Below are positions 17,732-41,376 of a stretch of DNA of 48,282 nt, piece by piece. The notes under the pieces are model-generated. The model was not told where the DNA came from and searched no databases. It saw only the letters and a program-made list of their open reading frames with translations. The position numbers were made by a program, and so were the translations under genes. The stretch is taken from the IMG/VR virus record IMGVR_UViG_3300042449_001003, positions 1 through 48,282 of that record, one strand, 5' to 3'. Positions within the stretch are counted from its first letter, which is position 1. Every line of letters begins with the position of its first letter. This DNA comes from a virus.

Positions 17732-18118
17732 TCAGGCGAGTTTCCCTCCGTGCATGTGTGGACGACCCACGTTGTATTCGTGCTTCGCTTTGACGCACTC
17801 ACCGATGCGGATGCCTAGAGCGCGGGCTGTGTCGAAAGCGCGGATGACGATGTCAGCCAGCTCTTCTTCAGAGCAGGTCAGCGGGCGAGTTCCTCCGAGG
17901 AAGGGGACTACCGCATCTTTGTCGCAGGGGTTGTCGAGAGTTCCGCGACGAGCAGCCTCCCACAGTTCGCTCACTTCGCCGTGAAGGTTGGCAGTGTAGC
18001 GTGCGAGACGTTGAACGTCAGTCTCCGTCTTTCCGGCTTCGTGGAAACCTTTGCGGACGGCATTTTGATAGACCTGTTCGGACAGGAGGTCGAGTTGATC
18101 GTAGTCGATGGAAGGCAT
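17732..18118 (-). CDS. MazG-like nucleotide pyrophosphohydrolase, 128 aa
   Basis: Helical protein with the MazG signature: HGEVSELWEA and EEELADIVIRAFDTA give the paired acidic residues that bind magnesium in the all-alpha NTP pyrophosphohydrolase fold, and the end ECVKAKHEYN..RP..HGGK is typical of phage and bacterial MazG-like proteins. Such enzymes hydrolyse nucleoside triphosphates to monophosphates; phage versions may adjust nucleotide or alarmone pools. The start codon lies 8 nt after a probable -10 box within an operator-like palindrome, with no Shine-Dalgarno, so the mRNA may be leaderless. It heads a short unit with the downstream glycosyltransferase. Confidence 0.8.
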   Translation of the reverse strand: MPSIDYDQLDLLSEQVYQNAVRKGFHEAGKTETDVQRLARYTANLHGEVSELWEAARRGTLDNPCDKDAVVPFLGGTRPLTCSEEELADIVIRAFDTARALGIRIGECVKAKHEYNVGRPHMHGGKLA

Positions 18119-18126
18119 GGGCTTTC

Positions 18127-18154
18127 AATTTATCGAAATTGCCCCACTTGTCAA
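18127..18154 (-). promoter_or_regulatory. Promoter with embedded operator ahead of the MazG-like gene
   Basis: On the minus strand TTGACA (18154-18149) and TAAATT (18132-18127) are 16 bp apart. The palindrome-like TTTCGATAAATTGAAA (18138-18123) overlaps the -10 box. The ATG begins 8 nt after the -10 box. The -35 box overlaps the stop of the upstream glycosyltransferase gene. Best -35 match in the family of sites. Confidence 0.6.
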
Positions 18155-19179
18155 CCGGCCTTTTGTTTCGCGATCTTGAATCGTATCAGGTGGTGATCCT
18201 CGGCAGCGAAGAAGTCAGGCAGGCGGGCGCATTGGAACTCATAGACCATTTGCCGAGCCTGCTCCCGAGAGACGCCGTCACGGCGGGCTATGGTCAAAGC
18301 GAGTCCATTGAAGGCGTTGCTCGGCTTCTCGCCGGGGTATTGCCAGCGACCCGGAGGCACTCTGGAGATGTCCATCTCTCGGAAGGTTGGCTCTGAAGAG
18401 GGGATGGTGACGGCTGGACGGAGGCCGATGGCTGGGAGATGAACGTCTCCCTTGGCGACGTGCTGGACTTCAGGAAGGCCAGGAGCCTGGGGGAAGATGC
18501 AGTCTGGGAAGACGAGGCTTGTCTCTTGGATTCGTGGGTGTTTGAGTCCCTCAGCGATGGCTCCTGCGCTGCTCTGGTTTCCGATGAATAGTTCCGAGCC
18601 TGCGATCAGCTCGGCGACTTGGAGCATGTTCTCTGTTGGTTGGAAATCAACATAGCCGTAGTTCCCGCAGAACTCTCTCCATTCGTATTCCAGACCAATG
18701 AATAGCAGGTGGTGCTTGTAGTGATCGACGACCTTGTACCAAGGGAAGGTCGAGTTCCTGTATCGCCCTGTCCGGTTGATCACCACTCTGCCTTTCGATA
18801 CAGGCGATGGCTTTGCCTTCAGCCAAGCTGTCGATCCGTCAATACGTAAAGCAGTCTGCTTCACTATGCAGTAGTGGTTCAGGTGTGCCTGCATCAACGT
18901 CTCTCCGGGGGTGTAGTGCCGCAAGCTGCGGAAGTCTTCGCTCCGCCAGTCAACGGTGGTGCTTGGGTCGATCAGCCGAAACTCGGAGATATAGCTCTGA
19001 GAATCGACGAGCGGCTTTAGGAGGTCGAACATTCTCTGAGCCTGTTCTGGCGTCTTCGCTTTGGTTGTCGTCGAGGGACGGAGACCTAGCGAGTGCGGTC
19101 CGTTGGGGAGGTGCTTGAGGATGTTCAGGAGAAAAACGCAATCGCCAATATCTCCGGTGGTGGAGCAGAATAGACTCAT
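18151..19179 (-). CDS. Glycosyltransferase family 9-like (heptosyltransferase-like), 342 aa
   Basis: The ATG at 19179, two bases after the radical SAM stop, starts MSLFCSTTGDIGDCVFLLN. GDIGD followed by a hydrophobic helix matches the N-terminal donor loop of ADP-heptose-type GT9 enzymes, and ELIAGSELFIGNQSSAGAIA matches their C-terminal donor-binding segment. GT9 enzymes transfer heptose or related sugars to lipopolysaccharide cores. Here the substrate is unknown, and the cluster could decorate host surface glycan or virion proteins. About 340 residues is the usual length. The longer upstream reading frame overlaps the radical SAM gene and is unlikely. Confidence 0.7.
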   Translation of the reverse strand: MSLFCSTTGDIGDCVFLLNILKHLPNGPHSLGLRPSTTTKAKTPEQAQRMFDLLKPLVDSQSYISEFRLIDPSTTVDWRSEDFRSLRHYTPGETLMQAHLNHYCIVKQTALRIDGSTAWLKAKPSPVSKGRVVINRTGRYRNSTFPWYKVVDHYKHHLLFIGLEYEWREFCGNYGYVDFQPTENMLQVAELIAGSELFIGNQSSAGAIAEGLKHPRIQETSLVFPDCIFPQAPGLPEVQHVAKGDVHLPAIGLRPAVTIPSSEPTFREMDISRVPPGRWQYPGEKPSNAFNGLALTIARRDGVSREQARQMVYEFQCARLPDFFAAEDHHLIRFKIAKQKAG

Positions 19180-19181
19180 GG

Positions 19182-20360
19182 CTACACAAAGTTGACGTGG
19201 TCGATGTTTCCTTCTGGAAGCGGAGTCTCGGCTCCGTTCACTATGGCATTGATCAGGTCCACTTGATCGGCGAACACACAACCAGGACAGATGTTGTCGG
19301 GCATCTGATACTTCTCAGGATGCTGCATGAGGTCCCCCACCTTGTCTCCTGTGCAGATGCGCCACTCAGAATTGAACTTGTGACCTGCTGTTCGATTGAG
19401 CACCACGCTGTCGCAGGCATAGACCCATCCGTCTGCATTCAAGCATGGACGTGTCAGCACCTTGAAGCACTTCTTCGGCTGGCGCGGTGGTTTGTTCTGT
19501 GAGAAGACGACCTGCGGGTCAATCCGATCAGCCATTCCTTGCAGGAGAGCGTGGCGCTGCGGGATGCGCTCAGGCTGCAAGCAGTTGGTGAGTAGTCGAA
19601 CGTAGCGAGGTCGGTGCTTCTCGACGTACTCTTTGATCCTTGACTCTATCCAAGGGAGACGCTCTTCAGCATCGACGAACCGACCTCCTGGAGTCTTCAC
19701 GTCCTCGGGAGTGCTAACCCAGCCGTGTTTGTGAGTGGGTTCCTCGTAGCTGTCCGACATGATCCAGGAGAAACCAAGAGCGGTCTTGGTCGGGTCAAAG
19801 TCAGGCACATAGACTTCCTGCTCTTTGTGGTTGTGATCCAGCCCCGCCATGGAGATGCGGCACCACGTCAGCTTGTCGAGGTTCTCAGGTTTCAGGTTCT
19901 TCCAAGAGAAACGAACGGTGGCTACTGACCCATCTTCACGCACGATCTTTGGGTAGCCTATCAAAGGCATCCCGTTCGTGATCATCGCCACCTCCAGACC
20001 AAAATGGTCGTGTGCCAGTTCGATCAGGTCATTGATGCCTTTGCCTGTCTCCTTGCATCGGTAGATGAGTGGGTTTCCACCCCCCGAGAACGTGACAGAC
20101 TTCAGTCCAAGGGGCACAAGCTGACCGAGGAACTCTTCGATCTGGGAGAACCGCAGCACGTCACCCACACGCTCGCCAACTGAGCAGAAGGAGCACTTGG
20201 CATTGCAGACATCGGTCGGGGCCACCCAGCAGGAGATGGGCATCCCTTTACCGTCACGGAGGGCTTGCATCGCTTCCTGATGGTGGAATAGCTTGGCTCC
20301 GGTCGAGGTGAAGGACGTGTCGAGTTCTGGCTTTTCAGCGATGGAGGAAGGTAGTCTCAT
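19182..20360 (-). CDS. Radical SAM protein with C-terminal Cys cluster, 392 aa
   Basis: The motif CNAKCSFC (residues about 52-59, CX3CX2C) binds the radical SAM 4Fe-4S cluster, and VTFSGGGNPL fits the GGE-like SAM-binding strand. The C-terminal part holds further cysteines (CFKVLTRPC, CDS, ICTGD, ICPGC) arranged like a SPASM-type auxiliary cluster region. Radical SAM enzymes of this build modify peptides, proteins or sugars by hydrogen abstraction. It overlaps the upstream methyltransferase by 4 nt and is followed 2 nt later by the GT9-like gene, so it works inside the surface-chemistry operon. Substrate unknown. Confidence 0.8.
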   Translation of the reverse strand: MRLPSSIAEKPELDTSFTSTGAKLFHHQEAMQALRDGKGMPISCWVAPTDVCNAKCSFCSVGERVGDVLRFSQIEEFLGQLVPLGLKSVTFSGGGNPLIYRCKETGKGINDLIELAHDHFGLEVAMITNGMPLIGYPKIVREDGSVATVRFSWKNLKPENLDKLTWCRISMAGLDHNHKEQEVYVPDFDPTKTALGFSWIMSDSYEEPTHKHGWVSTPEDVKTPGGRFVDAEERLPWIESRIKEYVEKHRPRYVRLLTNCLQPERIPQRHALLQGMADRIDPQVVFSQNKPPRQPKKCFKVLTRPCLNADGWVYACDSVVLNRTAGHKFNSEWRICTGDKVGDLMQHPEKYQMPDNICPGCVFADQVDLINAIVNGAETPLPEGNIDHVNFV

Positions 20361-20965
20361 AGCGGTTTAGTAGCAGACATTACCAATGAGAAAAGAGGAC
20401 GGTTCAAGTTCTGACGGATGACACCTTCCACTTCATTCAGGACTGGTGATTCTGGGAGAGTGCGCTTCACGTTCTCGTCCTTGAACCCAGCGCGTATCAG
20501 GTAGGCCCACAGTGAGTCCTCCGTCAAAATGCCGAAATGCTCGTTGAACCAGAGCGCACAGGTAAAGAAGTTCGGATCTGGATGTTCTGGAGACATCGGC
20601 TCTCCAAACAGCTCGACGCAGTTCTCTTTGGTGTCCTGATGATACACTTTTCGGAAATAACTGGCGTCGGGGACACTCACCACTAATACCCCTCCGGGAC
20701 GCAGAACACGAAGGCACTCCTTCATAATTGTCACGGCGTCTTGGCAGTGGAAATGCTCGAAGAAGTGACTCGCGAGGATACCCGCGAAGGTGTTGTCGTT
20801 GAAAGGGAGTCGTCCTTTTGAAACGTCGTGGTTCACATAGTTTCCTTCCGCATCAAGATTGGTCCTCTCAGGAGTCCCCGGCTTCAGAAACGAGTGAAGG
20901 TTGTCAAGATTGAGGAAAGGCTTTTGGAGACGAGGGTACCCGCAGCCAAGATTGAGTATCTTCAT
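20357..20965 (-). CDS. Class I SAM-dependent methyltransferase, 202 aa
   Basis: Motif I appears as ILNLGCGYP at the very N-terminus. A later strand pair with FAGILASHFFEHF and LRVLRPGGVLVVSVPDA matches the methyltransferase-11 pattern (post-motif acidic/aromatic segment, then RPGG). It probably methylates a small molecule or sugar. Start and stop both overlap neighbours by 4 nt, so it is translationally coupled in the operon. Fold confident, substrate unknown. Confidence 0.8.
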   Translation of the reverse strand: MKILNLGCGYPRLQKPFLNLDNLHSFLKPGTPERTNLDAEGNYVNHDVSKGRLPFNDNTFAGILASHFFEHFHCQDAVTIMKECLRVLRPGGVLVVSVPDASYFRKVYHQDTKENCVELFGEPMSPEHPDPNFFTCALWFNEHFGILTEDSLWAYLIRAGFKDENVKRTLPESPVLNEVEGVIRQNLNRPLFSLVMSATKPL

Positions 20966-22484: not shown

Positions 22485-23257
22485 TTTGGTTCATTAAATC
22501 CTGTCTTACTCCACATATTCTCGGTGCCAGCTTTGTCCAGACGTTCATAGGTTTGGATCGCTAGTTTCCGGCCTTCTGGGTCGGCTTTTTTCGCCCAGAA
22601 ATGGTGGTGGTCGATGAAGGGTCCGCCGTGCTCGTCTCCGGTTCCCCAGCTTGGTTCAGCCCAAGTTCTCGAATCGAGGATCTTTTCGTGCATCTTGACC
22701 GTAGGATCATAGAAGATGAATGGGATGTTTCGGACGAGCCTCAACTGCCAGTCCGTGATCAGGTGCCAGTTCTGGCAAGGTTTCGTGAAGTCGCCTGGAG
22801 CGCCGAACCAGTGGCGGCGGGACAGACGATAGGCGTTCTTGGAGCCTGACTGCCGCAGCGCGTCTTTGAGCATCGTTCCTTGCGGGTGCGATGGGTTCAA
22901 CATCTCGACCTTGAGATCAGGATTCTTCACCTGCGGGTAGCCTTCTGTGCCGTGACAGCGGACAAGCGGAGGATTCTCAGCAAAGCGTTCATCCGCGTCG
23001 AGGATGAGCACCCACTCGGCGTTGGACTCGCGGATACATCTGGAGCGAACCACGCCGTATCCCGAGTCGATCTTGGTGTGGACGAGCCGCACCCCGGCTT
23101 TCTCAACGAGTGCGATGGACTCGTCATCTGGCGGGGCGTCGGACGGTGGGGAGGAGACCATCACCACGTCGTCGAAGAACCCTGAAGTCGCCATTTCAAG
23201 GAAGCCGGGAAGGGCGAAAGGTTCCCTGAAAAAGTTACAGGCTAGACCTAAACTCAT
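22481..23257 (-). CDS. Glycosyltransferase family 2-like protein, 258 aa
   Basis: Starts with a GT-A-like fold (FREPFALPGFLEMATSGFFDDVVMV), reaches RSRCIRESNAEWVLILDADERF at about residues 72-93, where DADE is the classic DXD-like metal site, and ends with HHFWAKKADPEGRK. Expected to transfer a sugar from a nucleotide sugar. Overlaps the methyltransferase upstream and the endonuclease downstream by 4 nt each, so before the endonuclease arrived the next gene was probably the type-24 methyltransferase. Donor and acceptor unknown. Confidence 0.75.
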   Translation of the reverse strand: MSLGLACNFFREPFALPGFLEMATSGFFDDVVMVSSPPSDAPPDDESIALVEKAGVRLVHTKIDSGYGVVRSRCIRESNAEWVLILDADERFAENPPLVRCHGTEGYPQVKNPDLKVEMLNPSHPQGTMLKDALRQSGSKNAYRLSRRHWFGAPGDFTKPCQNWHLITDWQLRLVRNIPFIFYDPTVKMHEKILDSRTWAEPSWGTGDEHGGPFIDHHHFWAKKADPEGRKLAIQTYERLDKAGTENMWSKTGFNEPK

Positions 23258-23895
23258 ACATGCACCCTCCGCACCGTGAGGAACCCATAGCTCTTCGGAT
23301 ACTTGAAACAGTTCGGCTTGACGACAGGAGCCTCGTAGCCGCCGCTGACGACGAAATTCTTATCGAACCGTTGAAGGAACTCGATCCAGTCCGGCAGCGT
23401 CCAGCGGATGACATGGGTGGAGTCCTGCTCATCGACCGGACAGTTGTAGGTGCCTCCGCGAGTGACTGCCAAGGGAACGATGATGTAGAGCTGCTTGCGG
23501 CAGGATCGTAGCAGCGAAGCCACGATGTCGGTCAGCGTGTCCACTTCGATGTGCTCGAACACATCTTTGGCAATGATGTGGTCCCAAGCCATCGGTGAGG
23601 TGTTCAAGGTGTTGCTGACGAAACTCTTCACGCCTTCATCGCAGTTGGCGATAGCCCACTCAGATAGGTCGTAGCCGTGTGCCTGGATTCCTTGCATACG
23701 CAGGGCTTTCACGGTGTAGCCGCGAGCACATCCGAAGTCCAAAACGACATCGTCGCTGCGGATGCCTAGCATCCACTTCAACTGGAGCGCCATCGGCAGC
23801 GTCTTGTCGGGCAGCCAGTGGTAGTTTTCGTAGTTAGACAGGCCGAACTTGGGTCCGTTCAGATAGTAGTCTTCAGAGTAGGGGTGGTTGGGCAT
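23254..23895 (-). CDS. Class I SAM-dependent methyltransferase, 213 aa
   Basis: Motif I VVLDFGCARGYTVKALRMQG with the motif II acid in AHGYDLSEWAI, and MAWDHIIAKDVFEHI as the post-motif strand, typical of small-molecule or sugar methyltransferases. First gene of the leftward surface-chemistry operon. The ATG is 9 nt downstream of a probable -10 box and has no Shine-Dalgarno. The stop overlaps the glycosyltransferase start by 4 nt. Enzyme class sure, substrate unknown. Confidence 0.8.
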   Translation of the reverse strand: MPNHPYSEDYYLNGPKFGLSNYENYHWLPDKTLPMALQLKWMLGIRSDDVVLDFGCARGYTVKALRMQGIQAHGYDLSEWAIANCDEGVKSFVSNTLNTSPMAWDHIIAKDVFEHIEVDTLTDIVASLLRSCRKQLYIIVPLAVTRGGTYNCPVDEQDSTHVIRWTLPDWIEFLQRFDKNFVVSGGYEAPVVKPNCFKYPKSYGFLTVRRVHV

Positions 23896-23904
23896 GTGTT
23901 TTTC

Positions 23905-23933
23905 AGGTTATCGAATCTTTTCTACTACGTCAA
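23905..23933 (-). promoter_or_regulatory. Promoter with embedded operator for the surface-chemistry operon
   Basis: On the minus strand TTGACG (23933-23928) and TAACCT (23910-23905) are 17 bp apart. The operator-like ATTCGATAACCTGAAA (23916-23901) overlaps the -10 box, with one outer base off the TTTC-N8-GAAA form. The start codon follows 9 nt after the -10 box. It lies in the 40-bp gap after the large terminase gene. Confidence 0.5.
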
Positions 23934-23935
23934 CT

Positions 23936-26343: not shown

Positions 26344-26348
26344 GATAG

Positions 26349-26922: not shown

Positions 26923-28356
26923 TTAGCAAAAGTCCTCCTCATGTTTGATGGTTAGTTTCTTCCTTGGCACCGCGCCTTCGCGGTAAGATTCTAGTAACTG
27001 GAGCGCAGTTAAAAGTCGGTCTTCTGTGACCTTTTTCTCCTCGATCACCGTTGCTACTGCGTAGTCCACTGTATCCGGGATCATCAGTCGATAGACCGTC
27101 ACTACGCTTCCTTGTCCTCGCCGGTCGAGACGAGCAATCATCTGCTCGTAGTCCTCTCGGCTGTAGGTCAGTGTAAGCCAGACAAGTGTGTTTCCCCCGT
27201 GCTGGAGATTGAGCCCGTGACCAACGCTCTTCGGATGGGCGACCAAGATGGGGATCTTCTTGTTGTTCCAATCCTCTAAAAGCTGTTTCTGAGAGGTTTG
27301 ATTCTTGGCATCCGCAAAGAATCGGGCCTTGGGAAAGTATTTTCGTAGCCTCTCCTGTTCGTGCCTGAAGGCGCACGCTACCAGCACCGGCCCCTCCGTC
27401 TGCTTGATGATCTTCTCCAGTGCTTTGATCTTCAGATCATGGATGTCGTGCCACTTGCTGTCGGCGTCATAGATGCTCCCCGACGTGAACTGGAGCAGCT
27501 TGGCGACCAGTGCCGCAGCATTTGGAGCCGTGATCTCCGCTGACTTCAACTGGAGCACCAGTTCCTTCTCGAACTCCTTGTAGTCGTGGACGAGGTTCTT
27601 GGGCAGATGCACTTCCACGTCCTCAACCACTGTCTCCGGCAGGTTGAGCCAGTCTTTCGAGCGGAGCGTGAGGGTGATGTCGGCTAGCCGGTTCTCGATG
27701 GCTTCACCGGAGCCTGGAAGTTCTTTCCACTTGTAGCCCCCATACCCAGACTGCTTGAAGTAGGTCTGTTTGAAGTGCTCGAACGCACGACCAAGCCTCT
27801 TCCCGTTATCAACGAAACGTGCTTGGGCGAAGAGATCAAGAAGCGAGTTCGGAGCGGGGGTGCCAGTGAGCGCCCATATACGTTTGTGGATTTCATGCGT
27901 AACTTCACGGCGGTATAAATTGGCTCTCTTGGAGGTGGGGTTTTTGAGCTTGGTGGATTCATCCACTATCGTCAGGTCAAATGGGAGTCCTAGCCCCATG
28001 CTCCGCCGAGTCTTTACCAACTCGACGAGCTTGGGGATGGACTCGTAGTTGCAAACGTAGATGTGAGCTTTGCCTTGCAGGAACGCACGCTTGCCCGCAG
28101 GAGAGCGTAGGTTTGCCACCTTCATCCACTTAAAGTCGTCCCACCTCTCCACCTCCAGAGGCCAAGTCAGGTTTGCCACACGCATTGGAGCGAGGACGAG
28201 AGCGCCGATGGTCTGTTTCCGTTGGAACAGGGTGTTCAGCGCCGACAACGTAGCTGCGGTCTTCCCGATGCCGACGCCGACGAAGCCAAGAGCGTGCGGG
28301 TGGTCGAGGAGATGCTGTGTCAGCAGGTCTTGGGGTTCTGAAGAAGGGAACTTCAT
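26923..28356 (-). CDS. SNF2/SF2-type DNA helicase-translocase, 477 aa
   Basis: Walker A FVGVGIGKTAATL (about residues 25-37), Walker B TIVDESTKLKN (about 129-139), motif III SALTGTPAPN-like (WALTGTPAPNS), and in the second RecA domain LVWLTLTYSREDYEQMIARLDRRGQ matching motif VI of SNF2 proteins. Such phage helicases occur in replication/recombination modules with VRR-NUC, PolA and VapE-like genes. The start overlaps the stop of a 55-aa gene. It ends with EEDFC, a tail shared by other proteins here. Confidence 0.85.
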   Translation of the reverse strand: MKFPSSEPQDLLTQHLLDHPHALGFVGVGIGKTAATLSALNTLFQRKQTIGALVLAPMRVANLTWPLEVERWDDFKWMKVANLRSPAGKRAFLQGKAHIYVCNYESIPKLVELVKTRRSMGLGLPFDLTIVDESTKLKNPTSKRANLYRREVTHEIHKRIWALTGTPAPNSLLDLFAQARFVDNGKRLGRAFEHFKQTYFKQSGYGGYKWKELPGSGEAIENRLADITLTLRSKDWLNLPETVVEDVEVHLPKNLVHDYKEFEKELVLQLKSAEITAPNAAALVAKLLQFTSGSIYDADSKWHDIHDLKIKALEKIIKQTEGPVLVACAFRHEQERLRKYFPKARFFADAKNQTSQKQLLEDWNNKKIPILVAHPKSVGHGLNLQHGGNTLVWLTLTYSREDYEQMIARLDRRGQGSVVTVYRLMIPDTVDYAVATVIEEKKVTEDRLLTALQLLESYREGAVPRKKLTIKHEEDFC

Positions 28357-28521: not shown

Positions 28522-28836
28522 TTAGCAAAATTCTCGATCCGTTTTCAATAGTTTTCGAATGAACTCGCAGCCGTCCTCGACGTTGTCGCACCAAGTAGCT
28601 AGGCAGTTCTGTTTCGTGAGTTTGATGATCTCCCCCATCTGGAGCGGTGTGGGTTTCTTGCCCGCAGCCTTCACTTCGAGGAACCCAATCACCCCTTGCG
28701 GAGTGATGATCATCCGATCAGGGACGGCGCGGCGTGCGGGACTAACAAATTTAAGGTATAGACAGCCGTGCTTCTTGGCGAACTCACCGATTTTCTTCTC
28801 GATGTCTTTTTCGAGTTGGGGGCCGACGGGTTTCAC
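28522..28836 (-). CDS. VRR-NUC domain nuclease, 104 aa
   Basis: Pattern GCLYLKFVSPARRAVPDRMI, then VIGFLEVKAAGKKPTPLQ gives the PD-(D/E)XK acids (D of VPDR and E-V-K) of the VRR-NUC family of Holliday-junction or flap-type nucleases. I prefer the GTG at 28836, which overlaps the exonuclease stop (GTGA); an upstream ATG at 28890 would add 18 residues inside the previous gene. Usual length about 100 residues. It ends in DREFC. Partner genes are the exonuclease and the SNF2-like helicase. Confidence 0.8.
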   Translation of the reverse strand: MKPVGPQLEKDIEKKIGEFAKKHGCLYLKFVSPARRAVPDRMIITPQGVIGFLEVKAAGKKPTPLQMGEIIKLTKQNCLATWCDNVEDGCEFIRKLLKTDREFC

Positions 28837-29453
28837 AGAATCAGTTCTCTTTGAAGTTGGTCCATCTCTGCCTGTTTCTCCGCCTTGCACAGCTCCTGAA
28901 ACGCCGGGAGCAGGATCAGGTGGTTCACCTGCGAAATGGCGTCGTCGAGAGCGTTGTGGTGCGTGCCCACACGAGCAGGCATCTTGATGTGGGGGTACAT
29001 CGCTTTAAGGGTGCGGTAGCAGCGGTCGTTCCAGAATTTCCAAGGTGCCTCCAAGCCGAGCAGGTCGTAGGCTGCTTTCAGGAGCACGTTGTCGAAGTTG
29101 GCACCGTTTCCCCAGAGTTCTAGGTCTGGATTTGCTGCGTAGCCTGTCGGTGTGAATGGAGCTTCACACCACACTGAAAAAGCTTCCAAGACGTAACTCA
29201 AAAAAGAAGACTCTTTCTGAAACTCCTCTCTTGCTGCGCCCGACTGCTTCATCCACCACTTGACGGTGTCCACGTCGATGAGCATCCCCGCATCGACGCA
29301 GCTTTGCATGTCGATCCTCATGTAGAATGGCTCGCCGTACGGTCCGTTCTCGTCGAACTTAGTGGTTCCGATGGAGGTGATGATGGAGCCTGGGCGGGTG
29401 CCCATCGTTTCGAGGTCAACGCAGACCCTCGTAGGTTTGATTTTTGGGTTCAT
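28833..29453 (-). CDS. DnaQ-like 3'-5' exonuclease, 206 aa
   Basis: VCVDLETMGT (Exo I acids D and E), SIITSIGTTKF, VDTVKWWMKQSG, an ELWGNGANFDNVLL segment (Exo II) and THHNALDDAISQ (Exo III, H and D) make a DEDDh exonuclease like those in phage replication modules, related to exonuclease VIII or RNase T. It degrades 3' ends, probably in recombination or proofreading. It starts 10 nt after a probable -10 box, with no Shine-Dalgarno, so it heads a leftward unit to at least 26349. Confidence 0.85.
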   Translation of the reverse strand: MNPKIKPTRVCVDLETMGTRPGSIITSIGTTKFDENGPYGEPFYMRIDMQSCVDAGMLIDVDTVKWWMKQSGAAREEFQKESSFLSYVLEAFSVWCEAPFTPTGYAANPDLELWGNGANFDNVLLKAAYDLLGLEAPWKFWNDRCYRTLKAMYPHIKMPARVGTHHNALDDAISQVNHLILLPAFQELCKAEKQAEMDQLQRELIL

Positions 29454-29463: not shown

Positions 29464-29492
29464 AACTTATTTCAGTTTGTCGAAATTGTCGA
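29464..29492 (-). promoter_or_regulatory. Promoter with embedded operator before the exonuclease gene
   Basis: On the minus strand TCGACA (29492-29487) and TAAGTT (29469-29464) are 17 bp apart, with TTTCGACAAACTGAAA (29485-29470) filling the spacer. The -10 box is followed by TACTACC, like the TACTACG at 38897-38891. The ATG starts 10 nt after the -10 box. The -35 box is weak. Confidence 0.5.
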
Positions 29493-31653: not shown

Positions 31654-31832
31654 GATCTCAAAACAAAAGAAGTCCTCCCGTCCGCCGCTCCTTTCGGTTT
31701 ACAAGCCGATTTAGATCGCTGACGCGGTGTTGAGCCGTTGAAGGCTACGGGAGGAAATTGGATGGGCAGTTGTCTCCGAAACAACGTCTCAGGCTAACGC
31801 CTGTGTTTTGCACTAAACTATACCCAAAGGTT
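31654..31832 (-). promoter_or_regulatory. Structured leader RNA of the DNA polymerase gene
   Basis: Non-coding 179 bp between the ssDNA-binding gene and the polymerase. On the minus-strand RNA I see in order: hairpin CAGGC-GTTA-GCCTG (31803-31790), hairpin GTTGT-N7-ACAAC (31785-31769), then a 9-bp long-range stem TCCTCCCGT (31755-31747) with ACGGGAGGA (31681-31673). That stem encloses the hairpins AGCC-N6-GGCT (31746-31733) and TCGG-N8-CCGA (31709-31694). The closing stem sequesters GGGAGGA, the only Shine-Dalgarno-like sequence before the ATG. A TATAGT at 31822-31817 could be a -10 box, with a poor -35. Confidence 0.5.
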
Positions 31833-32411
31833 TTACGCTGCGTCTTCGGAGTCATCCGACTCGTCGGAGAACACGTCCTCTGCGCGGACACGGCTTCCGC
31901 CGCCACTGAGAGGCTCGCCATCTTTGAGGAACTGAATAGCCTCGAAGCCTGCGAACAGGCCGCGACCGCCGTTCTCGGTGCCGTAGAAGCGAACGACTAC
32001 TTTGCAGAAGGAACCAGAGTAAGGCTTGTTATCTTCAGCCGCCAGAGGCGTGCGACCGTCCACATCGACGATGACTGGGCGGTTCTTGTTGCTGGCAGAG
32101 ACGACCTTCATGCCTTTGTAGGCGTCCTTGATCTCGTCGTCCTTGTCCGTGTGGGTGTTGCCGTCCGACACGCAGAAGCGTTTCGGGTCTTTCCAGACAA
32201 GCGGGTGCTTCTTCCACTTGTCGAGGGAGACGTGCTTCACGGCAGCGTCGATTGACTTCATCGCTGCTTTGCCGTCAGCCGTGCTAGGGTCGATGATGCA
32301 GGTGACTTTGAACTTGGGGTTTCCCTGGTTGAGTTGTCCCTCAAAAGGTTTGAAGCAGTGGAGGTAATCGACGCGACATTTGATGATCGCTGTTGCTGGG
32401 TCTAGTGGCAT
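31833..32411 (-). CDS. DUF2815-like ssDNA-binding protein, 192 aa
   Basis: Start set at ATG 32411 (MPLDPATAIIKCRVDYLHCF), since the longer frame runs into the promoter and the neighbouring gene. The order of beta strands (FKVTCIIDPST, NRPVIVDVDGRTPL, GSFCKVVVRFYGTENGGRG) and an acidic end (EDVFSDESDDSEDAA) fit the DUF2815 family of OB-fold ssDNA-binding proteins found next to phage PolA and DUF2800 genes. It would coat single-stranded DNA and recruit partners through its acidic tail. Leader about 50-60 nt from a strong promoter. Confidence 0.75.
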   Translation of the reverse strand: MPLDPATAIIKCRVDYLHCFKPFEGQLNQGNPKFKVTCIIDPSTADGKAAMKSIDAAVKHVSLDKWKKHPLVWKDPKRFCVSDGNTHTDKDDEIKDAYKGMKVVSASNKNRPVIVDVDGRTPLAAEDNKPYSGSFCKVVVRFYGTENGGRGLFAGFEAIQFLKDGEPLSGGGSRVRAEDVFSDESDDSEDAA

Positions 32412-32471: not shown

Positions 32472-32500
32472 ACTATATTTCGAGATACTGAAACTGTCAA
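32472..32500 (-). promoter_or_regulatory. Promoter with embedded operator for the ssDNA-binding gene
   Basis: On the minus strand TTGACA (32500-32495) and TATAGT (32477-32472) are exactly 17 bp apart. TTTCAGTATCTCGAAA (32493-32478) occupies the spacer, in the inverted orientation compared with most sites. The -10 box is followed by TACTCCG. Best overall promoter of the set; the leader is about 55 nt, so this mRNA is not leaderless. Confidence 0.65.
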
Positions 32501-34591: not shown

Positions 34592-34608
34592 AGGCTTGTA
34601 CTACCAAA

Positions 34609-34634
34609 GGGCGCGGCTCCGAAGAACCGCGCCC
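34609..34634 (-). terminator. Strong GC hairpin with UUCG loop
   Basis: On the minus strand GGGCGCGGTTC pairs with GAGCCGCGCCC (11 pairs, one G-U) around a TTCG tetraloop closed by C-G, an exceptionally stable loop. It lies 15 nt past the stop of the 234-aa gene. Only TTT follows, so it is either a partial intrinsic terminator or an RNA-stabilising hairpin. Confidence 0.6.
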
Positions 34635-34649
34635 GATTGCGGCGGGGGT

Positions 34650-35811: not shown

Positions 35812-35813
35812 AT

Positions 35814-38438
35814 TTAGCAAAATTCCTCCTCGTTATTTGTTTCTTTCCCTTCCGCCCGGTCGCGAGCAATCTGGAATACTTCTGCGGGCATCTTTCCATC
35901 GAACTTGCCCTGCTTGATCCAAAGGTAGCCCCTCATGCTGTCTATCATCGGCCTTCCTGGAACTCGTAAATAGTGCTCTTCACGGAGCAGCTTGCCGATG
36001 CGCTGGGGGCTCTCCTTCAACCCTTCCATCGTGAGTGCCCCCATCAAGGACGGCTCCCAGACCATGTCTTCGGAGAGCAGCGGTGACTCGGAGTCGCGGA
36101 GCGTGCGGCGGATGGCTGAAGTGACCTCGTCCGCCGAGTCCTCAATCATCTCTTCGAGGTACTTGGTCTTGGGGGCGCGTCCGTTGGGGTTGAAGCCTGG
36201 ACTGATCGTCCAAGTCTCGAAAAAACTGCGAAGCCCGCCAGCGAGGTTGTCCAGCATCCCAAACAACCTGTCGAAATATCCCGGCCCCAAGGCTGCCACC
36301 TGCTCCTCAGTCTGGAGCTTGGACTTGATGACGAAGTACCTTCTGCTGCCTGCCATCACCGCCAGAGCGTCGTGGTGATTGGTGAACATGATGTAGTTGG
36401 TGATGTTCTTGTGCTTTCTGGTGTCCGCGTGCTTCTTGTTCACCGAGACAAAGTCGTCTGTGACCAGCTCTTTGAGCTTGTTCATTATGTCGTGCCTGTT
36501 GTGCCCGGCGACACGCACTTCCCCAATGACGATGAGTTGCGCTCCAACTGCCCACTCGTTCCAGTTGCCGCGAATGGCTTCGTTGTTCACATACATCACG
36601 TTCTCTTCTCCGAGGATCTTCCCCAGCAGGATCGCCCACAATGTCTTGCCGATGCCTTCCCCACCCTGCATCAGAGGAGCCCATCGGCACTTTTTCCCAG
36701 GGTTCTGAACGTGGAAAGCGATGTAGTCCAAGATCACCCGCTGGTACTCGGTCTCGGCAATCAGATTGCGAAGATGCTCTTGGAGGATGTTGCCTGCCTG
36801 CTCGGCATCCGCAGGTTTGGCTTTGGGGTAGCAGGCGCGATAGGTGTTCACCAACTTGAGTCCATTCTCGTCTTCGCTGTAAATCTCTTTTGGGGAGGTG
36901 GGGTCATAGGTCGTGTCATCGACGACCGGGCATTCGATCTTGTTGAGTAGGTACTGGTTGGGGAGAATCGGAGGGACGTAGAGCGCGGTGTCGGTGGCAT
37001 CTTTGCCTTGGGCTTCTATCTGCTCAGGCGGAGTGAGCAGGAACCGGGAATACTCAGCGTTGAAGGCTTCCTTGGAGCGCCACTGGTGGGTGGATGGACG
37101 GAAAAACTTCTCGTAGCAGGCGACATAGAACCACCCTTTCGTCCAAGCTGGGTCTTTTTTGACAGCTTCTTCCGGCGTCTTAGACTTGAGTTGTGCCTTG
37201 CGGAGCTTGTCGAGATCCTTCTTCAGATCGCCGAGGCGACCCTTCTCCCCGAGCTTGGTGAGTGCCCGCAGGATGGAGTTGAGCAGGGTTCCTTCTTCAA
37301 CGTGTGTCAGGATGGGCAACTGTGCGATTCTCTCCAGAGCGATGTGGGTCATCTCATGGAGTGTTTTCGCCTCGTCGTTGATCCAGTCATTGACGACTTT
37401 GAAACAGTCCTCTTTGACCTTCCCCACGTTCCATCCTGCGTCGGCGGCTCGTTTGATGAGCGTTCTGATTGTCACCGGCACTCTGCCGCGTGGCGTGGTG
37501 TAAACAGCGTCCCACTTGGCACGGGTGCCGTCTGGACCGGGGTAGGTGTCTCCTCCTGACGACCACTTGTCGAAGAGGTTGAAGGCTTCCTCTTCCTGCT
37601 CGGTATCTGAGTATTGGTGACGGAGTGCGCAGCAGACTTCAAACCACTCTTGGTAGCCGCAGTTGGGCGACAATGTTTCGAGCGCAGCGGCGATGTCCTT
37701 GAACTCCACTCCCATCAGTGGAGCGCGGAGATATTCGAGACCATCGTCCTCTGCGTAGCTGCGTTTCGCCTTCTCGGGGTTGATGCTGGTGTCTTTGACA
37801 TCTGACAAGGTGAAGGCGTCTCCTTTGAGGAACGACACCACCATGGGATGCTCGCTGTCGGGGTCTTGGTCTGCGAACAGACTCGGACAGATCATCGGCT
37901 GGTTTGGAGTCAGCGACTCTTTCGTGATGTTCCCCAGCCCGATCCTCTCGGCGATGGTCTTCACCGCTGCTGGGTAGGCTTCCAACGTGATGTTGTCCGC
38001 GTCCACCACGATACGCATCCGTGGTTTTTCTGGCGTCGAGCTGGCAGTTGTGTAAGCTGCGAAGTTGAAGGGGCGAAGAGCCTTCAGCAGGATGTCCGGG
38101 TTCTCGATGTAGGGGGCGGCTGGTGAGCGACCATCCTTCTCTGTGTCCAAGTCCAGGAAGAGCAGATTGCAGCAGTTCGTCTTCTCGGCAAACTTGCGCT
38201 CGCGAGAGGTCTCCTCTTCATCGAAGACGCAGGCGACGAGATAGGTCGTGTCCTTGGCGTTGAGTCGCTCGGTCCTCCCCTCCGAGGTGTCGGAGGGAAT
38301 GGCTGCGTATTCCTTGCGTGTGAGACGTAGCGGGACTGCCGCGTCGAGATGCTTTTTGACAAGCTCGCCGAACGACCTAGCTGCGGACGCTCTCACACGG
38401 TTGGATTTTACTGATCCACCGTAAAAGTATTTAGCCAT
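35814..38438 (-). CDS. Primase-helicase (PrimPol-PriCT-SF3/VapE-like), 874 aa
   Basis: N-terminal PrimPol-like domain with NLLFLDLDTEKDG (catalytic acids) and TTASSTPEKPRMRIVVD (residues about 90-160); a PriCT-2-like segment around residues 250-330 (CGYQEWFEVCCALRHQYS, AVYTTPRGRVPVTIRTLIKR); then a DUF5906/VapE-type helicase with Walker A MQGGEGIGKTLWA at about 588-600, Walker B-like LIVIGEV and sensor NYIMFTNHHDAL. It would synthesise primers and unwind DNA at the phage origin. Starts 6 nt after the repressor gene. Ends in NEEEFC. Confidence 0.85.
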   Translation of the reverse strand: MAKYFYGGSVKSNRVRASAARSFGELVKKHLDAAVPLRLTRKEYAAIPSDTSEGRTERLNAKDTTYLVACVFDEEETSRERKFAEKTNCCNLLFLDLDTEKDGRSPAAPYIENPDILLKALRPFNFAAYTTASSTPEKPRMRIVVDADNITLEAYPAAVKTIAERIGLGNITKESLTPNQPMICPSLFADQDPDSEHPMVVSFLKGDAFTLSDVKDTSINPEKAKRSYAEDDGLEYLRAPLMGVEFKDIAAALETLSPNCGYQEWFEVCCALRHQYSDTEQEEEAFNLFDKWSSGGDTYPGPDGTRAKWDAVYTTPRGRVPVTIRTLIKRAADAGWNVGKVKEDCFKVVNDWINDEAKTLHEMTHIALERIAQLPILTHVEEGTLLNSILRALTKLGEKGRLGDLKKDLDKLRKAQLKSKTPEEAVKKDPAWTKGWFYVACYEKFFRPSTHQWRSKEAFNAEYSRFLLTPPEQIEAQGKDATDTALYVPPILPNQYLLNKIECPVVDDTTYDPTSPKEIYSEDENGLKLVNTYRACYPKAKPADAEQAGNILQEHLRNLIAETEYQRVILDYIAFHVQNPGKKCRWAPLMQGGEGIGKTLWAILLGKILGEENVMYVNNEAIRGNWNEWAVGAQLIVIGEVRVAGHNRHDIMNKLKELVTDDFVSVNKKHADTRKHKNITNYIMFTNHHDALAVMAGSRRYFVIKSKLQTEEQVAALGPGYFDRLFGMLDNLAGGLRSFFETWTISPGFNPNGRAPKTKYLEEMIEDSADEVTSAIRRTLRDSESPLLSEDMVWEPSLMGALTMEGLKESPQRIGKLLREEHYLRVPGRPMIDSMRGYLWIKQGKFDGKMPAEVFQIARDRAEGKETNNEEEFC

Positions 38439-38444
38439 GAGGGA

Positions 38445-38666
38445 TTATGCTCCCGTGAGTGTCTTGAGTGACACCTCCAAAGCTCGGGAGAGCTTCATCA
38501 GTGTGGAAGTGTTTGGCTGGCGGATGTTGTTTTCTACATCCGAAATGGTCCCGACAGCTACCCCTGACCTGTTCTTGAGTTGGGTCAGAGTGAGCTTGCG
38601 CCATTTACGGACTTCTCGCAATCGAGTTCCAATGGGCGTGTCGAGATCAAAGGTGGGCTTAGACAT
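38445..38666 (-). CDS. XRE-family (Cro/CI-type) repressor, 73 aa
   Basis: Single helix-turn-helix domain: GTRLREVRKWRKLTLTQLKNRSGVAVGTISDVENNIRQPNTSTLMKLSRALEV matches the HTH_3 layout, with recognition helix VGTISDVENN. No dimerisation domain beyond it. Its start codon is 6 nt after a probable -10 box that lies within an operator-like TTTCGGTAAATCGAAC, so it is probably autoregulated and its mRNA leaderless, as with lambda cI from PRM. Likely controls the other TTTC-N8-GAAA sites. Confidence 0.8.
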   Translation of the reverse strand: MSKPTFDLDTPIGTRLREVRKWRKLTLTQLKNRSGVAVGTISDVENNIRQPNTSTLMKLSRALEVSLKTLTGA

Positions 38667-38668
38667 AG

Positions 38669-38700
38669 GTTCGATTTACCGAAACCCAGAACGGGGTGAA
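38669..38700 (-). promoter_or_regulatory. Autoregulatory promoter/operator of the XRE gene
   Basis: On the minus strand TTTCGGTAAATCGAAC (38684-38669), the most symmetric copy (TTCG-N6-CGAA), overlaps the -10-like TAAATC (38678-38673). A weak -35 TTCACC (38700-38695) is 16 bp away. The ATG is 6 nt after the -10 box. Confidence 0.5.
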
Positions 38701-38702
38701 GG

Positions 38703-38888
38703 TCAAGGCAATTCTGTCTTGTCCAGAAACTCTTCAATTTCTTCCGCAATCAAGACAGGCTCGGCCCCGTCCGAGATACGGGTGAGGAGGGCGCGGGCTT
38801 CGTTGAGTTGGAGTTCGAGGGTGCGGGCGAAGTCGATCCATGGTTTACCAAGCTCTTTTGCGTGTTTGTCAGTTCGTGGGGTATCCAT
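38703..38888 (-). CDS. Small phage protein of the DTPxTD type, 61 aa
   Basis: Begins MDTPRTDKHAKELGKPWIDF then a helix (ARTLELQLNEARALLTRI). The start resembles the N-terminus of the gene at 39389-39838 (MSDTPETDAF...PWWVFAGRLERERDEAR), so the two share a short conserved module seen in many environmental phages. The start is 9 nt after the probable -10 box, with no Shine-Dalgarno. Function unknown. Confidence 0.65.
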   Translation of the reverse strand: MDTPRTDKHAKELGKPWIDFARTLELQLNEARALLTRISDGAEPVLIAEEIEEFLDKTELP

Positions 38889-38897
38889 AACGTAGTA

Positions 38898-38926
38898 ACT
38901 CTCTTTCAGTTTGTCGAAATGTTCAA
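38898..38926 (-). promoter_or_regulatory. Promoter with embedded operator before the DTPxTD gene
   Basis: On the minus strand TTGAAC (38926-38921), 17-bp spacer, GAGAGT (38903-38898, poor -10). The operator TTTCGACAAACTGAAA (38919-38904) is identical to the copy at 29470-29485. TACTACG follows the -10 box. The ATG is 9 nt after it. Confidence 0.45.
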
Positions 38927-39210
38927 GCGAAATCTTCTTTTACTGCTGCGGGTATTTTGGCGATCAGGATCGTCTTCCATCCGCCGTGCTGGCCGAGGGA
39001 CACGCGGTCGATGAGGGCGACGTTCAGGCCGTTGGCTGTGCATTCCTGGATGTGCTTGTTCACATTCTCCAGAGGGATCTTTTTCCACTCCAACGCGCTC
39101 TTGTAAGCGGTGTAGCCTTCTGCTTCAGGGAACAGCCAGACATCGCAGTCCGGGGCGGCTCGCCGCATGTCGGCGACTTTGTTTTTGAGGAATAGGTCGA
39201 GGTGGTTCAT
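38923..39210 (-). CDS. Hypothetical protein, 95 aa
   Basis: A helical start (MNHLDLFLKNKVADMRR) then strands with DCDVWLFPEAEG and a helix VNKHIQECTANGLNVALIDR. It looks like a small alpha/beta fold, perhaps a nuclease-like or regulatory domain, but no catalytic motif is convincing. Starts in an ATGA overlap with the paralogue at 39207. Ends KEDFA, a variant of the common tail. Confidence 0.55.
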   Translation of the reverse strand: MNHLDLFLKNKVADMRRAAPDCDVWLFPEAEGYTAYKSALEWKKIPLENVNKHIQECTANGLNVALIDRVSLGQHGGWKTILIAKIPAAVKEDFA

Positions 39211-39392
39211 TCGTTGTCGGCTTTGAATTTTTGAATCGCAGCTAGGAGTTGATCTTCAAATCGGGTGTCAGTCTGTTCGGAGATGAACCCGATTATTTCA
39301 TCTACAACATCCTTGGTCGTCCACTGTTCGCGGGACGCTTTCAAGACTTGTGGCAGCGTGACTTCGTGAGTGATTTCGATGGGTAGGCTCAT
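39207..39392 (-). CDS. Small paralogous protein B, 61 aa
   Basis: The ATG at 39392 overlaps the upstream stop (ATGA); a longer frame exists inside the upstream gene. MSLPIEITHEVTLPQVLKA...LLAAIQKFKADNE is related to the 71-aa protein at 35596-35811. Short, acidic and helical; function unknown. Overlaps the next gene by 4 nt. Confidence 0.6.
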   Translation of the reverse strand: MSLPIEITHEVTLPQVLKASREQWTTKDVVDEIIGFISEQTDTRFEDQLLAAIQKFKADNE

Positions 39393-39838
39393 TTCAGGAA
39401 GGGCTGGAGTTTGGCGAGTGCAGCAGCGAGAGCGCGCCCCTGCGGAGGATTTGGACAGCAGCAAGGATTTCCACTTGTCGCAGTTTCATCGCCGAGTGGT
39501 ATGTGAATCAGGTCAATAGCTTCATGTGCCTCCTTGATCACGTCGCGCATCTTTTCATTCTCCGCCCGCAGGCCAGCTTCAACGGCTTCCATTCCGACGA
39601 GTTTATAAGCGAGGGTAGCCCGATCTTTGATTAGCCTCTCAATGCGCTGTGCTCTGTCACCAAGGTCTGGTCGCTGGATAAGCGCGGACTTGATTGCTAC
39701 TTGATTGTCGTGGTTGGATTTCCAGTGAGCCGCTTCGGCTCTGGCCTCGTCTCGCTCGCGTTCGAGGCGACCAGCAAACACCCACCATGGCTCTCCGACA
39801 GTTCGTTTGAAGGCGTCAGTTTCTGGCGTGTCGCTCAT
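39389..39838 (-). CDS. DTPxTD-type protein with coiled coil, 149 aa
   Basis: N-terminal MSDTPETDAF module as in the 61-aa gene, then a long helical Arg/Glu/Ala-rich coiled coil (GRLERERDEARAEAAHWK...LRAENEKMRDVIKEAHEAID) and a Pro/Cys-containing end (GNPCCCPNPP). A GGGAGGAAACGAAATG ribosome site precedes the start, inside the end of the upstream gene, with which it overlaps by 4 nt. Function unknown. Confidence 0.6.
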   Translation of the reverse strand: MSDTPETDAFKRTVGEPWWVFAGRLERERDEARAEAAHWKSNHDNQVAIKSALIQRPDLGDRAQRIERLIKDRATLAYKLVGMEAVEAGLRAENEKMRDVIKEAHEAIDLIHIPLGDETATSGNPCCCPNPPQGRALAAALAKLQPFLK

Positions 39839-40110
39839 TTCGTTTCCTCCCAGAGTTTGAGGATTTGTCGGAGTGTCTCTTGTGCGATTTTTGAATCTTG
39901 GTCGTAGGCTTTAAGCGCATCCTCCGAGCACTCAACATTTACCTCCATTGACATTGCTTCGATGTGTTCCACAGCCACCAAAAGCATCTTCGCCATCGTC
40001 GGGCTGATGTTGCGGGCGCGGGCGATGAAGAGGGCGTAACTGTGAGGCGTGATCGTCTCACTCAGTTTGATGAACTCGCGGAGTTCGGTTTTTAGTTGGT
40101 CGATGTTCAT
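39835..40110 (-). CDS. Hypothetical protein, 91 aa
   Basis: All-helical, charged protein (NIDQLKTELREFIKLSETI, ARNISPTMAKMLLVAVEHIEAM). No family recognised. Start and stop overlap neighbours by 4 nt. Belongs to the small-gene string behind the XRE repressor. Confidence 0.6.
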   Translation of the reverse strand: MNIDQLKTELREFIKLSETITPHSYALFIARARNISPTMAKMLLVAVEHIEAMSMEVNVECSEDALKAYDQDSKIAQETLRQILKLWEETK

Positions 40111-40574
40111 CGTGCGTCCTCCTTGGTGGCAGGTTCGATGGTAGCTTCCTCGAAATCTTTTACACGCGGATTAGCAACGTCAAACCACCGGCATACAACA
40201 TCGCCGTTAAGACGAAATGCTGCGACAGTCATCACCGGCCCGCCAGACTTGAGCCGGACCACGTCACCGACTTTGGGAGTCCATGAGTCACCATTCCAAA
40301 CGGATTCAAGTTCCGCCTGAAACTTGGCGTGGGCCTCGAAGGTGTCCGACTCGGCAGTCTGGCTGTCATGGCTGGCGGCAGGGGTCGGCAGGCGTTCGAG
40401 AAGCTCGCGGGCTAGAGCGAGGCGGGCTGGGGACTCTTCGGGCCATGTTTTGGGGAAGCCAGTCGGAGTCATTATTATTGACCTGCCAATATCGGCAAAA
40501 TATGATTTCTGCGTAGTTTCACAAGCCGCGTCAATGGCGGCTTGGATTTGTTCGTCGGTGTAGTTGTGTTTCAT
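40107..40574 (-). CDS. Protein with a YodC/DUF2158-like C-terminus, 155 aa
   Basis: The C-terminal third, PKVGDVVRLKSGGPVMTVAAF...VCRWFD, matches the YodC (DUF2158) beta-barrel pattern (GDVVxLKSGGPxMTV, CxWF). The first two thirds are helical, with TDEQIQAAIDAACETTQKSY. The function of the family is unknown. Upstream GAGGACTTCGCTTAACC lies about 20 nt from the ATG. Confidence 0.7.
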   Translation of the reverse strand: MKHNYTDEQIQAAIDAACETTQKSYFADIGRSIIMTPTGFPKTWPEESPARLALARELLERLPTPAASHDSQTAESDTFEAHAKFQAELESVWNGDSWTPKVGDVVRLKSGGPVMTVAAFRLNGDVVCRWFDVANPRVKDFEEATIEPATKEDAR

Positions 40575-40581
40575 AATTTGG

Positions 40582-40869
40582 TTAAGCGAAGTCCTCTGAC
40601 TTCATTTTGGCTCGGTAAATTTGTGCGATGTAGGCCGATGTGCATCCAACTCGACGTGCATTCTCGGCGTAGCTGAGGCTCCAGTCGATTTTGGACAGGT
40701 CATGCCGTCCAGGGCGACCTGAGCCGGGGCTGCGCGGCCCTTTCGGCTTGCCTTTGTTGCGTCGGAAGTGATGGACGTTGGCAAGTGTCGTGCCTGCGAG
40801 CTTGGCAATCTCGGCGGCGGTGAGCTTGCGCCACTGTGTATCAGTGATGGCGTGGAGGGGGGAGGTCAT
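40582..40869 (-). CDS. DNA-binding helix-turn-helix protein, 95 aa
   Basis: Two HTH-like segments, KLTAAEIAKLAGTTLANVHHF and YAENARRVGCTSAYIAQIY, joined by a basic linker with SPGSGRPGRHDL, an AT-hook-like run. Probably a transcription regulator or a small nucleoid-type protein. Ends SEDFA. Its start overlaps the upstream Cys-rich gene stop by 4 nt. Confidence 0.6.
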   Translation of the reverse strand: MTSPLHAITDTQWRKLTAAEIAKLAGTTLANVHHFRRNKGKPKGPRSPGSGRPGRHDLSKIDWSLSYAENARRVGCTSAYIAQIYRAKMKSEDFA

Positions 40870-41093
40870 TTGTCTGGTGTTTTGGGTTCAAACCAACGCC
40901 CTTCCGCTCCACATAGCTTGTGCATACGGGAACCAAGCCAGCCTGTGAGTATTCCCGTTCTGTGTGATGAGCACATTTGAAATAGGAAGTTTTGGGTTTC
41001 AGACCCATCTACCGGGCTGAGTATCTTTTTCCCGTTGTTGGGGCTTTGGCAGCGCCATTCGTCGAAGTGTTTACAGTTGATGCAGAGTTTCAT
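40866..41093 (-). CDS. Small Cys-rich protein, 75 aa
   Basis: MKLCINCKHFDEWRCQSP at the start (CxxC plus a third Cys) and further single cysteines (QMCSSH, KLCGAEGRWFEP) suggest a zinc site. Such small proteins are common in phage early regions. The leader 41094-41173 holds one of the 66-nt repeats. No Shine-Dalgarno; the leader shows AGAAACGAAAAC before the ATG. Confidence 0.55.
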   Translation of the reverse strand: MKLCINCKHFDEWRCQSPNNGKKILSPVDGSETQNFLFQMCSSHRTGILTGWLGSRMHKLCGAEGRWFEPKTPDK

Positions 41094-41114
41094 AGTTTTC
41101 GTTTCTGGAGTCGT

Positions 41115-41180
41115 TCACCGCTTCGTGTCGGCGGCGGGGTTTGGTGGAGTGCTGGTCGAGGGTGGGGTTTGGGTTACAGA
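41115..41180 (-). repeat. 66-nt cassette-end repeat, copy 1
   Basis: Starts TCTGTAACC and ends GCCGACACGAAGCGGTGA, open in one frame (S-V-T...A-D-T-K-R-stop). It follows the 55-aa gene, whose own stop lies within it in a different frame, and precedes the Cys-rich gene. Confidence 0.7.
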
Positions 41181-41341
41181 ATCAGTCTTTGAGCCACCAA
41201 AAAGGGTCGGCGTTGTTTCTGAATCTTGGCGTCCTCCAGCTTCTGCCGGAGTTCACGTTTCTGAGCGAGTCTGGCATTGACCGTGGCGAGGTAGCGGGCG
41301 AGCGCGGCCTCGGGGGAGTCGGAAGGTGGGGAAGGTGTCAT
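41174..41341 (-). CDS. Small helical protein, 55 aa
   Basis: A Pro/Ser-rich start (MTPSPPSDSPEAALARYLAT) followed by a basic helix (ARLAQKRELRQKLEDAKIQK). Start chosen at 41341, only 6 nt after a good -10 box, which predicts a leaderless mRNA. No family recognised. The stop lies inside the conserved 66-nt repeat. Confidence 0.55.
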   Translation of the reverse strand: MTPSPPSDSPEAALARYLATVNARLAQKRELRQKLEDAKIQKQRRPFLVAQRLIL

Positions 41342-41347
41342 AGAGGG

Positions 41348-41376
41348 AATATACTCTTTCGATAAACTGAAATCAA
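41348..41376 (-). promoter_or_regulatory. Promoter with embedded operator, 55-aa gene
   Basis: On the minus strand TTGATT (41376-41371), 17-bp spacer, TATATT (41353-41348). The operator TTTCAGTTTATCGAAA (41372-41357) fills the spacer in inverted orientation. The ATG starts 6 nt after the -10 box, which predicts a leaderless transcript. Confidence 0.6.

Follow-up and report, generated by a model that had tools for sequence, protein, structure and literature searches.

Six minus-strand genes of the viral genome record IMGVR_UViG_3300042449_001003 (48,282 nt, analysed over its whole length and referred to here as the window) had been proposed, in an original prediction from the DNA alone, to lead operons and to be read from leaderless mRNAs. 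Their upstream regions probably form an operator regulon of an uncultivated phage clade, in which an XRE-type repressor would control promoters placed so close to the start codons that the mRNAs of the first genes should be near-leaderless. The six open reading frames (ORFs) and their ATGs were confirmed, all on the minus strand, and all six upstream regions were found to carry one 16 bp palindrome, TTTCGAYAAACTGAAA, which had escaped notice. Coordinates are given in Table 1, and genes are referred to below by the first position of their start codon.

Three exact matches to TTTCGAYAAACTGAAA occur in the window. Compared with TTTCGATAAACTGAAA, four sites lie within one mismatch and six within two, while none of 30 first-order-Markov randomisations of the window held such sites. 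Two operator promoters were found beyond the flagged six, that of the single-stranded DNA-binding protein (SSB) gene (32478–32493) and one at 42019–42034, giving eight in all. Every window site with two or fewer mismatches sits in a promoter; the three-mismatch sites at 13408 and 31198 are at about chance level. The palindrome is present in 12 of 15 related records, where the three-mismatch sites include chance matches. Two arrangements occur: at 18138 and 23916 it covers the -10 box, and at 29485, 38919, 32493 and, roughly, 41372 it occupies the 17 nt spacer between the -35 and -10 boxes. Placements of this kind are those by which repressors block polymerase. A palindromic operator overlapping the promoter elements of several operons is thereby present, as in XRE/Cro-type regulons.

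The promoter of 18118 has the form TTGACA-16-TAAATT with 8 nt from the -10 box to the ATG, and both the operator and its position are kept in relatives; in the related phages G005 and G007 the corresponding -10 is TATACT after a 17 nt spacer, likewise 8 nt from the ATG. The MazG-like protein encoded behind it is 70–74% identical in relatives and conserved from residue 1. For 23895 the promoter is TTGACG-17-TAACCT (9 nt), and for 41341 TTGATT-17-TATATT (6 nt), the intervening CCCTCT consisting of pyrimidines only. The promoter of 29453 (TCGACA-17-TAAGTT, 10 nt) is moderate and has the same layout in G004, G005 and G007; the distance to the ATG there is 9 nt in G004 and 23 nt in G007, while G005 has a 75-aa ORF first (13 nt). 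A -10 box 6–10 nt before the ATG, as originally described for all six genes, is therefore borne out at these four. At 38888 (TTGAAC-17-GAGAGT, 9 nt) the -10 is weak, and at 38666 no acceptable box lies at a legal spacing from TTGACC; GTAAAT, probably the box first chosen, is about 21 nt away. The start codon is ATG at all operator sites. If transcription begins 6–8 nt past the -10, the predicted leaders at the checked sites are 0–4 nt, and the A of the ATG is the sole purine at the expected +1 in the relatives of 18118 (TATACT GAAAACCT ATG) and at 41341 (TATATT CCCTCT ATG). The spacing typical of TA-led leaderless genes, with the second base of the -10 box 8–14 nt before the start, is found at 18118 (-13), 23895 (-14) and 41341 (-11); 29453 falls just outside (-15), 38888 lies at -14 with its weak box, and 38666 lacks it.

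The proximity of promoters to start codons was compared with chance in the window and its relatives G004, G005 and G007, with genes called by coding score. The promoter score was that of a -35/-10 pair with the -10 ending 4–12 nt before the start, and pairs scoring at least 8 were taken as strong. Generic sigma-70 and terminator scans of the window gave no excess over the shuffle level; consensus matches to sigma-70 alone therefore prove nothing, and internal in-frame ATGs were used as the contrast instead. Strong pairs precede 22 of 241 gene starts (9.1%); among the 985 internal ATGs the share is 0.1%, which makes an enrichment of about 90-fold at this score. In the distance histogram of strong pairs, 24 fall at 5–14 nt, and the other 5 nt bins hold 0–3, save for six at 65–69 nt; the 60–69 nt bins include the conserved SSB promoter. 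Because homologous sites of four phages are not independent, there are fewer separate cases than these counts suggest, but the contrast with internal ATGs is still large. The ATG-adjacent promoters are real.

The distance from promoter to ATG is also retained while the genes behind it are exchanged. The methyltransferase promoter (operator at 23916) occurs in six phages (the window, G003, G004, G005, G007 and G008) in front of five unrelated first genes, encoding 213, 516, 58, 190 and 78 aa, between which BLAST found no similarity and which all begin 4–8 nt past the operator. DNA identity is 68–92% over the 300 bp up to and including the operator and drops to about 30–40% immediately past it; the one pair with a gene in common is an exception. 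In G004, which lacks the MazG-like gene, the second gene of the window (MLIVIPVG...) starts exactly 4 nt past the operator, the usual position of the MazG-like gene. The 38888 promoter of G004 precedes an unrelated 80-aa gene, and the 41341 layout recurs in G004, G005, G007 and L091, the genes behind it belonging to four unrelated families if that of the window is counted; the genes at these two promoters in relatives start 5–11 nt past the -10. Constancy of distance despite changing genes suggests either that the promoter-AUG distance is itself selected or that it is the boundary of exchange. Near-leaderless mRNAs are well supported by the promoter spacing and its preservation across gene swaps. 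A more tentative suggestion is that the junction of operator-promoter and AUG may serve as a plug-in gene slot, where first genes are exchanged by recombination time and again at almost the same nucleotide; an ORF entering it would at once be expressed and repressed correctly, because its mRNA would require neither a leader nor a ribosome-binding site.

The palindrome is probably, judging from sequence features, the operator of the 73-aa XRE/Cro-type product of 38445–38666. The nearest solved relatives of this regulator are the DNA-binding domains of SinR, the ICEBs1 regulator, P22 C2 and DdrO, the last a weak match. Its helix GTISDVE is identical in four phages, alongside the conserved operator. 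The regulator gene, with its XRE helix-turn-helix (HTH), carries an operator of its own, as would be expected in a regulon of this type; in each of the four phages having the gene (the window, G004, G005 and G007), this operator ends 2–4 nt short of the ATG.

Shine-Dalgarno (SD) sequences are absent at the six flagged genes, as originally stated, but their absence is not diagnostic of leaderless starts because it is genome-wide. Across 212 genes of four related phages, anti-SD pairing at starts was no better than at internal ATGs (one-sided p = 0.9997), with a strong-SD minority (-8 kcal/mol or lower) at 12% of starts versus 3.5% of internal ATGs. The near-absence of SD pairing in the window and its relatives suggests a host with SD-independent initiation.

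In the proposed mechanism, the repressor, a small XRE protein and most likely the 38445–38666 product, would bind TTTCGAYAAACTGAAA over the -10 or within the -35/-10 spacer of promoters of the host sigma-70 type, and so keep RNA polymerase off early genes and genes of nucleotide metabolism, its own gene included. Upon derepression, polymerase would start about 6–8 nt past the -10, at the AUG or 0–6 nt before it, so that most first genes would be read from leaderless or near-leaderless mRNA, which the ribosomes of a host tolerating SD-less starts would translate unaided by an SD. Inside the gene runs 4 nt ATGA overlaps are common, in line with the proposal that genes there rely on overlaps, and these later genes would be read through the stop/start overlaps in a coupled manner. 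The SSB gene and a leader repeated among small genes (see below) would pair this operator with a genuine leader that lacks an SD.

Several observations weigh against leaderless, repressor-controlled first genes. The sigma-70 matrix is that of E. coli and may not be the host's. Across the flagged six, four -10 boxes are good (that of 29453 moderate), one is weak (38888) and one fails (38666). Most leaders are probably 1–4 nt rather than zero, so that the leaderless mRNAs first envisaged stand as near-leaderless ones. The strongest operator promoter of the window (32500–32472; 11 of 12 matches) is that of the SSB gene, whose leader is about 54 nt long, unstructured, A/C-rich and without an SD, and is conserved in G001, G004, G005, G006 and G007. 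ATG 41906, behind the operator-like promoter, has a leader of about 97 nt, and the G007 exonuclease gene, 23 nt after its -10, has a longer leader as well. Near-leaderless genes also occur behind promoters with no operator, at 3610 in the window and at similar sites in G005 (L067 17630) and G007 (L068 3681), with other near-leaderless ones in L066, L067 and L071. Operator control and leaderlessness are separable, and the idea that leaderless starts are the rule for regulated first genes does not hold. The description of the six genes as operon-leading is half right, most of them being closely preceded by same-strand genes, so that read-through from upstream is possible. The regulator, at 73 aa, is the size of Cro, and the operator could instead be bound by some other protein of the phage or host.

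Three other explanations were weighed. It is very improbable that the proximity of the ATGs is an artefact of taking the first ATG downstream of the motif. From a random position on the same strand, the probability that the first ATG lies no more than 20 nt away and opens at least 50 codons is 13%, and such an ATG is found at six of the eight operators (binomial p ~1e-4); the 90-fold excess, moreover, was obtained at independently called starts. The same-strand stop codons about 30–45 nt or less before most flagged genes, together with the absence of any terminator enrichment, would fit genes translated chiefly by reinitiation on read-through mRNAs, in which case the ATG-adjacent boxes would be mostly operators and leaders irrelevant. 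This seems unlikely, as the operator is conserved together with full, legally spaced -35/-10 pairs, and the distance from promoter to ATG is kept when genes are swapped.

Somewhat less unlikely, though still the lesser prospect, is that the operator regulon is real and the mRNAs have true short leaders of about 4–10 nt, starting 4–5 nt past the -10 and used by ordinary SD-less 30S initiation rather than the 70S leaderless route. Spacings of 9–12 nt and the TTACT that is conserved behind the -10 of spacer-operator promoters permit starts that leave 3–7 nt, and the genome is SD-poor even for the leadered SSB gene. On the other hand, a spacing of 5–8 nt at several sites leaves 0–2 nt, and 18118 (in relatives) and 41341 offer no purine other than the A of the ATG at the expected +1.

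Table 1. Operators, promoters and associated genes of the window.
Feature	Position	Strand	Details
Operator-free promoter TTGACG-17-TAAAAT	3570..3609	+	11 nt before ATG 3610; near-leaderless
MazG-like pyrophosphatase, 128 aa, first gene	17732..18118	-	PHROG 3301 E 2e-20; predicted leader 0-2 nt
Operator of MazG-like promoter, TTTCGATAAATTGAAA	18123..18138	-	overlaps -10 TAAATT 18132-18127; -35 TTGACA 18154-18149
Class I methyltransferase, 213 aa, first gene	23254..23895	-	PF13489 E 2e-8; predicted leader ~2-3 nt
Operator of methyltransferase promoter, ATTCGATAACCTGAAA	23901..23916	-	overlaps -10 TAACCT 23910-23905; -35 TTGACG 23933-23928
Rv2179c-like 3'-5' exonuclease, first gene	28833..29453	-	PF16473 E 9e-49
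Operator of exonuclease promoter, TTTCGACAAACTGAAA	29470..29485	-	fills spacer between -35 TCGACA 29492-29487 and -10 TAAGTT 29469-29464
Enc34-type ssDNA-binding protein (SSB) gene, leadered	31833..32411	-	PF10991 E 6e-33
Operator of SSB promoter, TTTCAGTATCTCGAAA (on minus strand)	32478..32493		spacer of TTGACA 32500-32495 / TATAGT 32477-32472
XRE/Cro-type HTH regulator, 73 aa	38445..38666	-	PF01381 E 5e-14
Operator of regulator gene, TTTCGGTAAATCGAAC	38669..38684	-	2 nt before regulator ATG; TTGACC 38706-38701, no good -10
First gene, 61 aa, family unassigned	38703..38888	-	no PHROG or Pfam match
Operator of 38888 promoter, TTTCGACAAACTGAAA	38904..38919	-	between TTGAAC 38926-38921 and weak -10 GAGAGT 38903-38898
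ORF of 55 aa, first gene	41174..41341	-	no homologue found in relatives
Operator of 41341 promoter	41357..41372		between TTGATT 41376-41371 and TATATT 41353-41348
Operator-like TTTCGACTTCCCGAAA	42019..42034		in TTGATT-17-TACATT promoter

Other features were noted near these genes. The small-gene array at 41109–43763 (minus strand) contains a repeated intergenic leader, with copies at 43747, 42407, 41953, 41409 and 41123. It is made up of TCTGTAACYC, about 60 variable nt and CACCGACCCAAAGCGGTGAACG (a short hairpin, CACCG-8 nt-CGGTG), about 10–50 nt before the next ATG, and more copies are found in L065 (G005) and L070 (G007). The gap between the SSB and DNA polymerase genes (31654–31832) exceeds the other gaps of this densely coding stretch and holds a GGAGGACTTCTTTTG stretch directly before the polymerase ATG. 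Between 19182 and 23257 (minus strand), radical SAM, methyltransferase and glycosyltransferase-type genes form a run in which neighbours overlap by 4 nt; it may be a modification cluster.

Six proteins, among them the helicase, DNA methyltransferase, exonuclease and primase, have in common an acidic tail at the C terminus whose last residues are FC, at 26923, 28522, 32509, 33243 and 35814 (minus strand) and 47665 (plus strand), with variants ending in FA at 38923 and 40582. The tails read HEEDFC, NDDFC, AEDFC, EEEFC, DREFC and EGDFC, and several more proteins of G004, G005 and G007 carry them. FC precedes a stop triplet, in any frame, in 8 of 2812 cases, six of which are these genes. It looks like a shared docking tail of replication proteins, comparable to the acidic tails of SSB and T7 gp4.

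Rfam and tRNA scans of the window gave no matches, and searches of phage records returned only distant matches to it. Two scans of bacterial genomes for a host, one with the DNA polymerase and one by alignment of a terminase-like protein, yielded only a 30% fragment in one Bacillota metagenome-assembled genome. Scans of the collection with the promoter patterns mostly returned the same relatives, and the matches in L079, L086 and L090 seem to be accidental or unrelated.

Leaderless phage mRNAs are already known and are usually cited gene by gene (lambda cI; PY54 cI and cro). Here one phage clade has several operons under probable repressor control, and some without it, on near-leaderless promoters whose spacing is kept while genes are exchanged. 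Such a set would offer a natural, testable case of phages acquiring and regulating genes without a ribosome-binding site, and it suggests that the ribosomes of the host work independently of SD pairing. Among open-licence full texts, the combination of a dispersed phage operator regulon, near-leaderless promoters and exchangeable first genes was not found described.

Parts of this combination have counterparts elsewhere. The Thermus phage phiYS40 is cited as having leaderless mRNAs, which a shift in the IF2 and IF3 levels of its host would favour (PMC3594737); the parts of that account consulted describe no shared operator, and no host or phage relationship to the window was seen in them. In the TA-like leaderless class of Zheng et al., the -10 lies at about -12 (range -14 to -8; PMC3160421), and the second base of the -10 lies similarly at -11 to -14 at the good sites here; that class is bacterial and genome-wide, whereas in the window the spacing coincides with a phage operator. 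Start-associated sequences of cluster K mycobacteriophages are short repeats 3–7 bp before the ATGs of non-structural genes (PMC3203893). They are non-palindromic 13-mers (GGGATAGGAGCCC), thought to act in translation, and the unrelated 16 bp palindrome in promoters here does not belong with them. The stoperators of cluster A mycobacteriophages serve one repressor through many dispersed, asymmetric sites spread over the genome (PMC9283540). The window resembles them in its dispersed sites, but a stoperator system was rejected, as the sites are palindromic and no copy above background lies away from a promoter.

Closer in design is the DdrO/RDRM (radiation/desiccation response motif) system of Deinococcus, in which an XRE-family repressor acts on a palindrome near or over start sites and the regulator gene has its own site (PMC8072749), in a phylum where leaderless starts are common (PMC12340547). 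An XRE-type regulator, a common palindrome at starts and an own site are shared with the window, and the DNA-binding domain of DdrO is a weak sequence match. DdrO governs a chromosomal stress regulon with a different palindrome and is induced by the IrrE protease, whereas the regulon proposed here is phage-borne; no search aimed at IrrE was made. In the telomere phage PY54, rapid amplification of cDNA ends shows that the cI and cro mRNAs begin at the AUG (PMC4488713). Like these genes and lambda cI transcribed from PRM (PMC4488713), the first genes of the window are phage genes probably under the operators of an HTH repressor. Those of PY54 and lambda are repressor genes of one immunity region; in the window, where the start of the regulator's own gene is the least certain, the arrangement extends to several dispersed operons of metabolism and replication.

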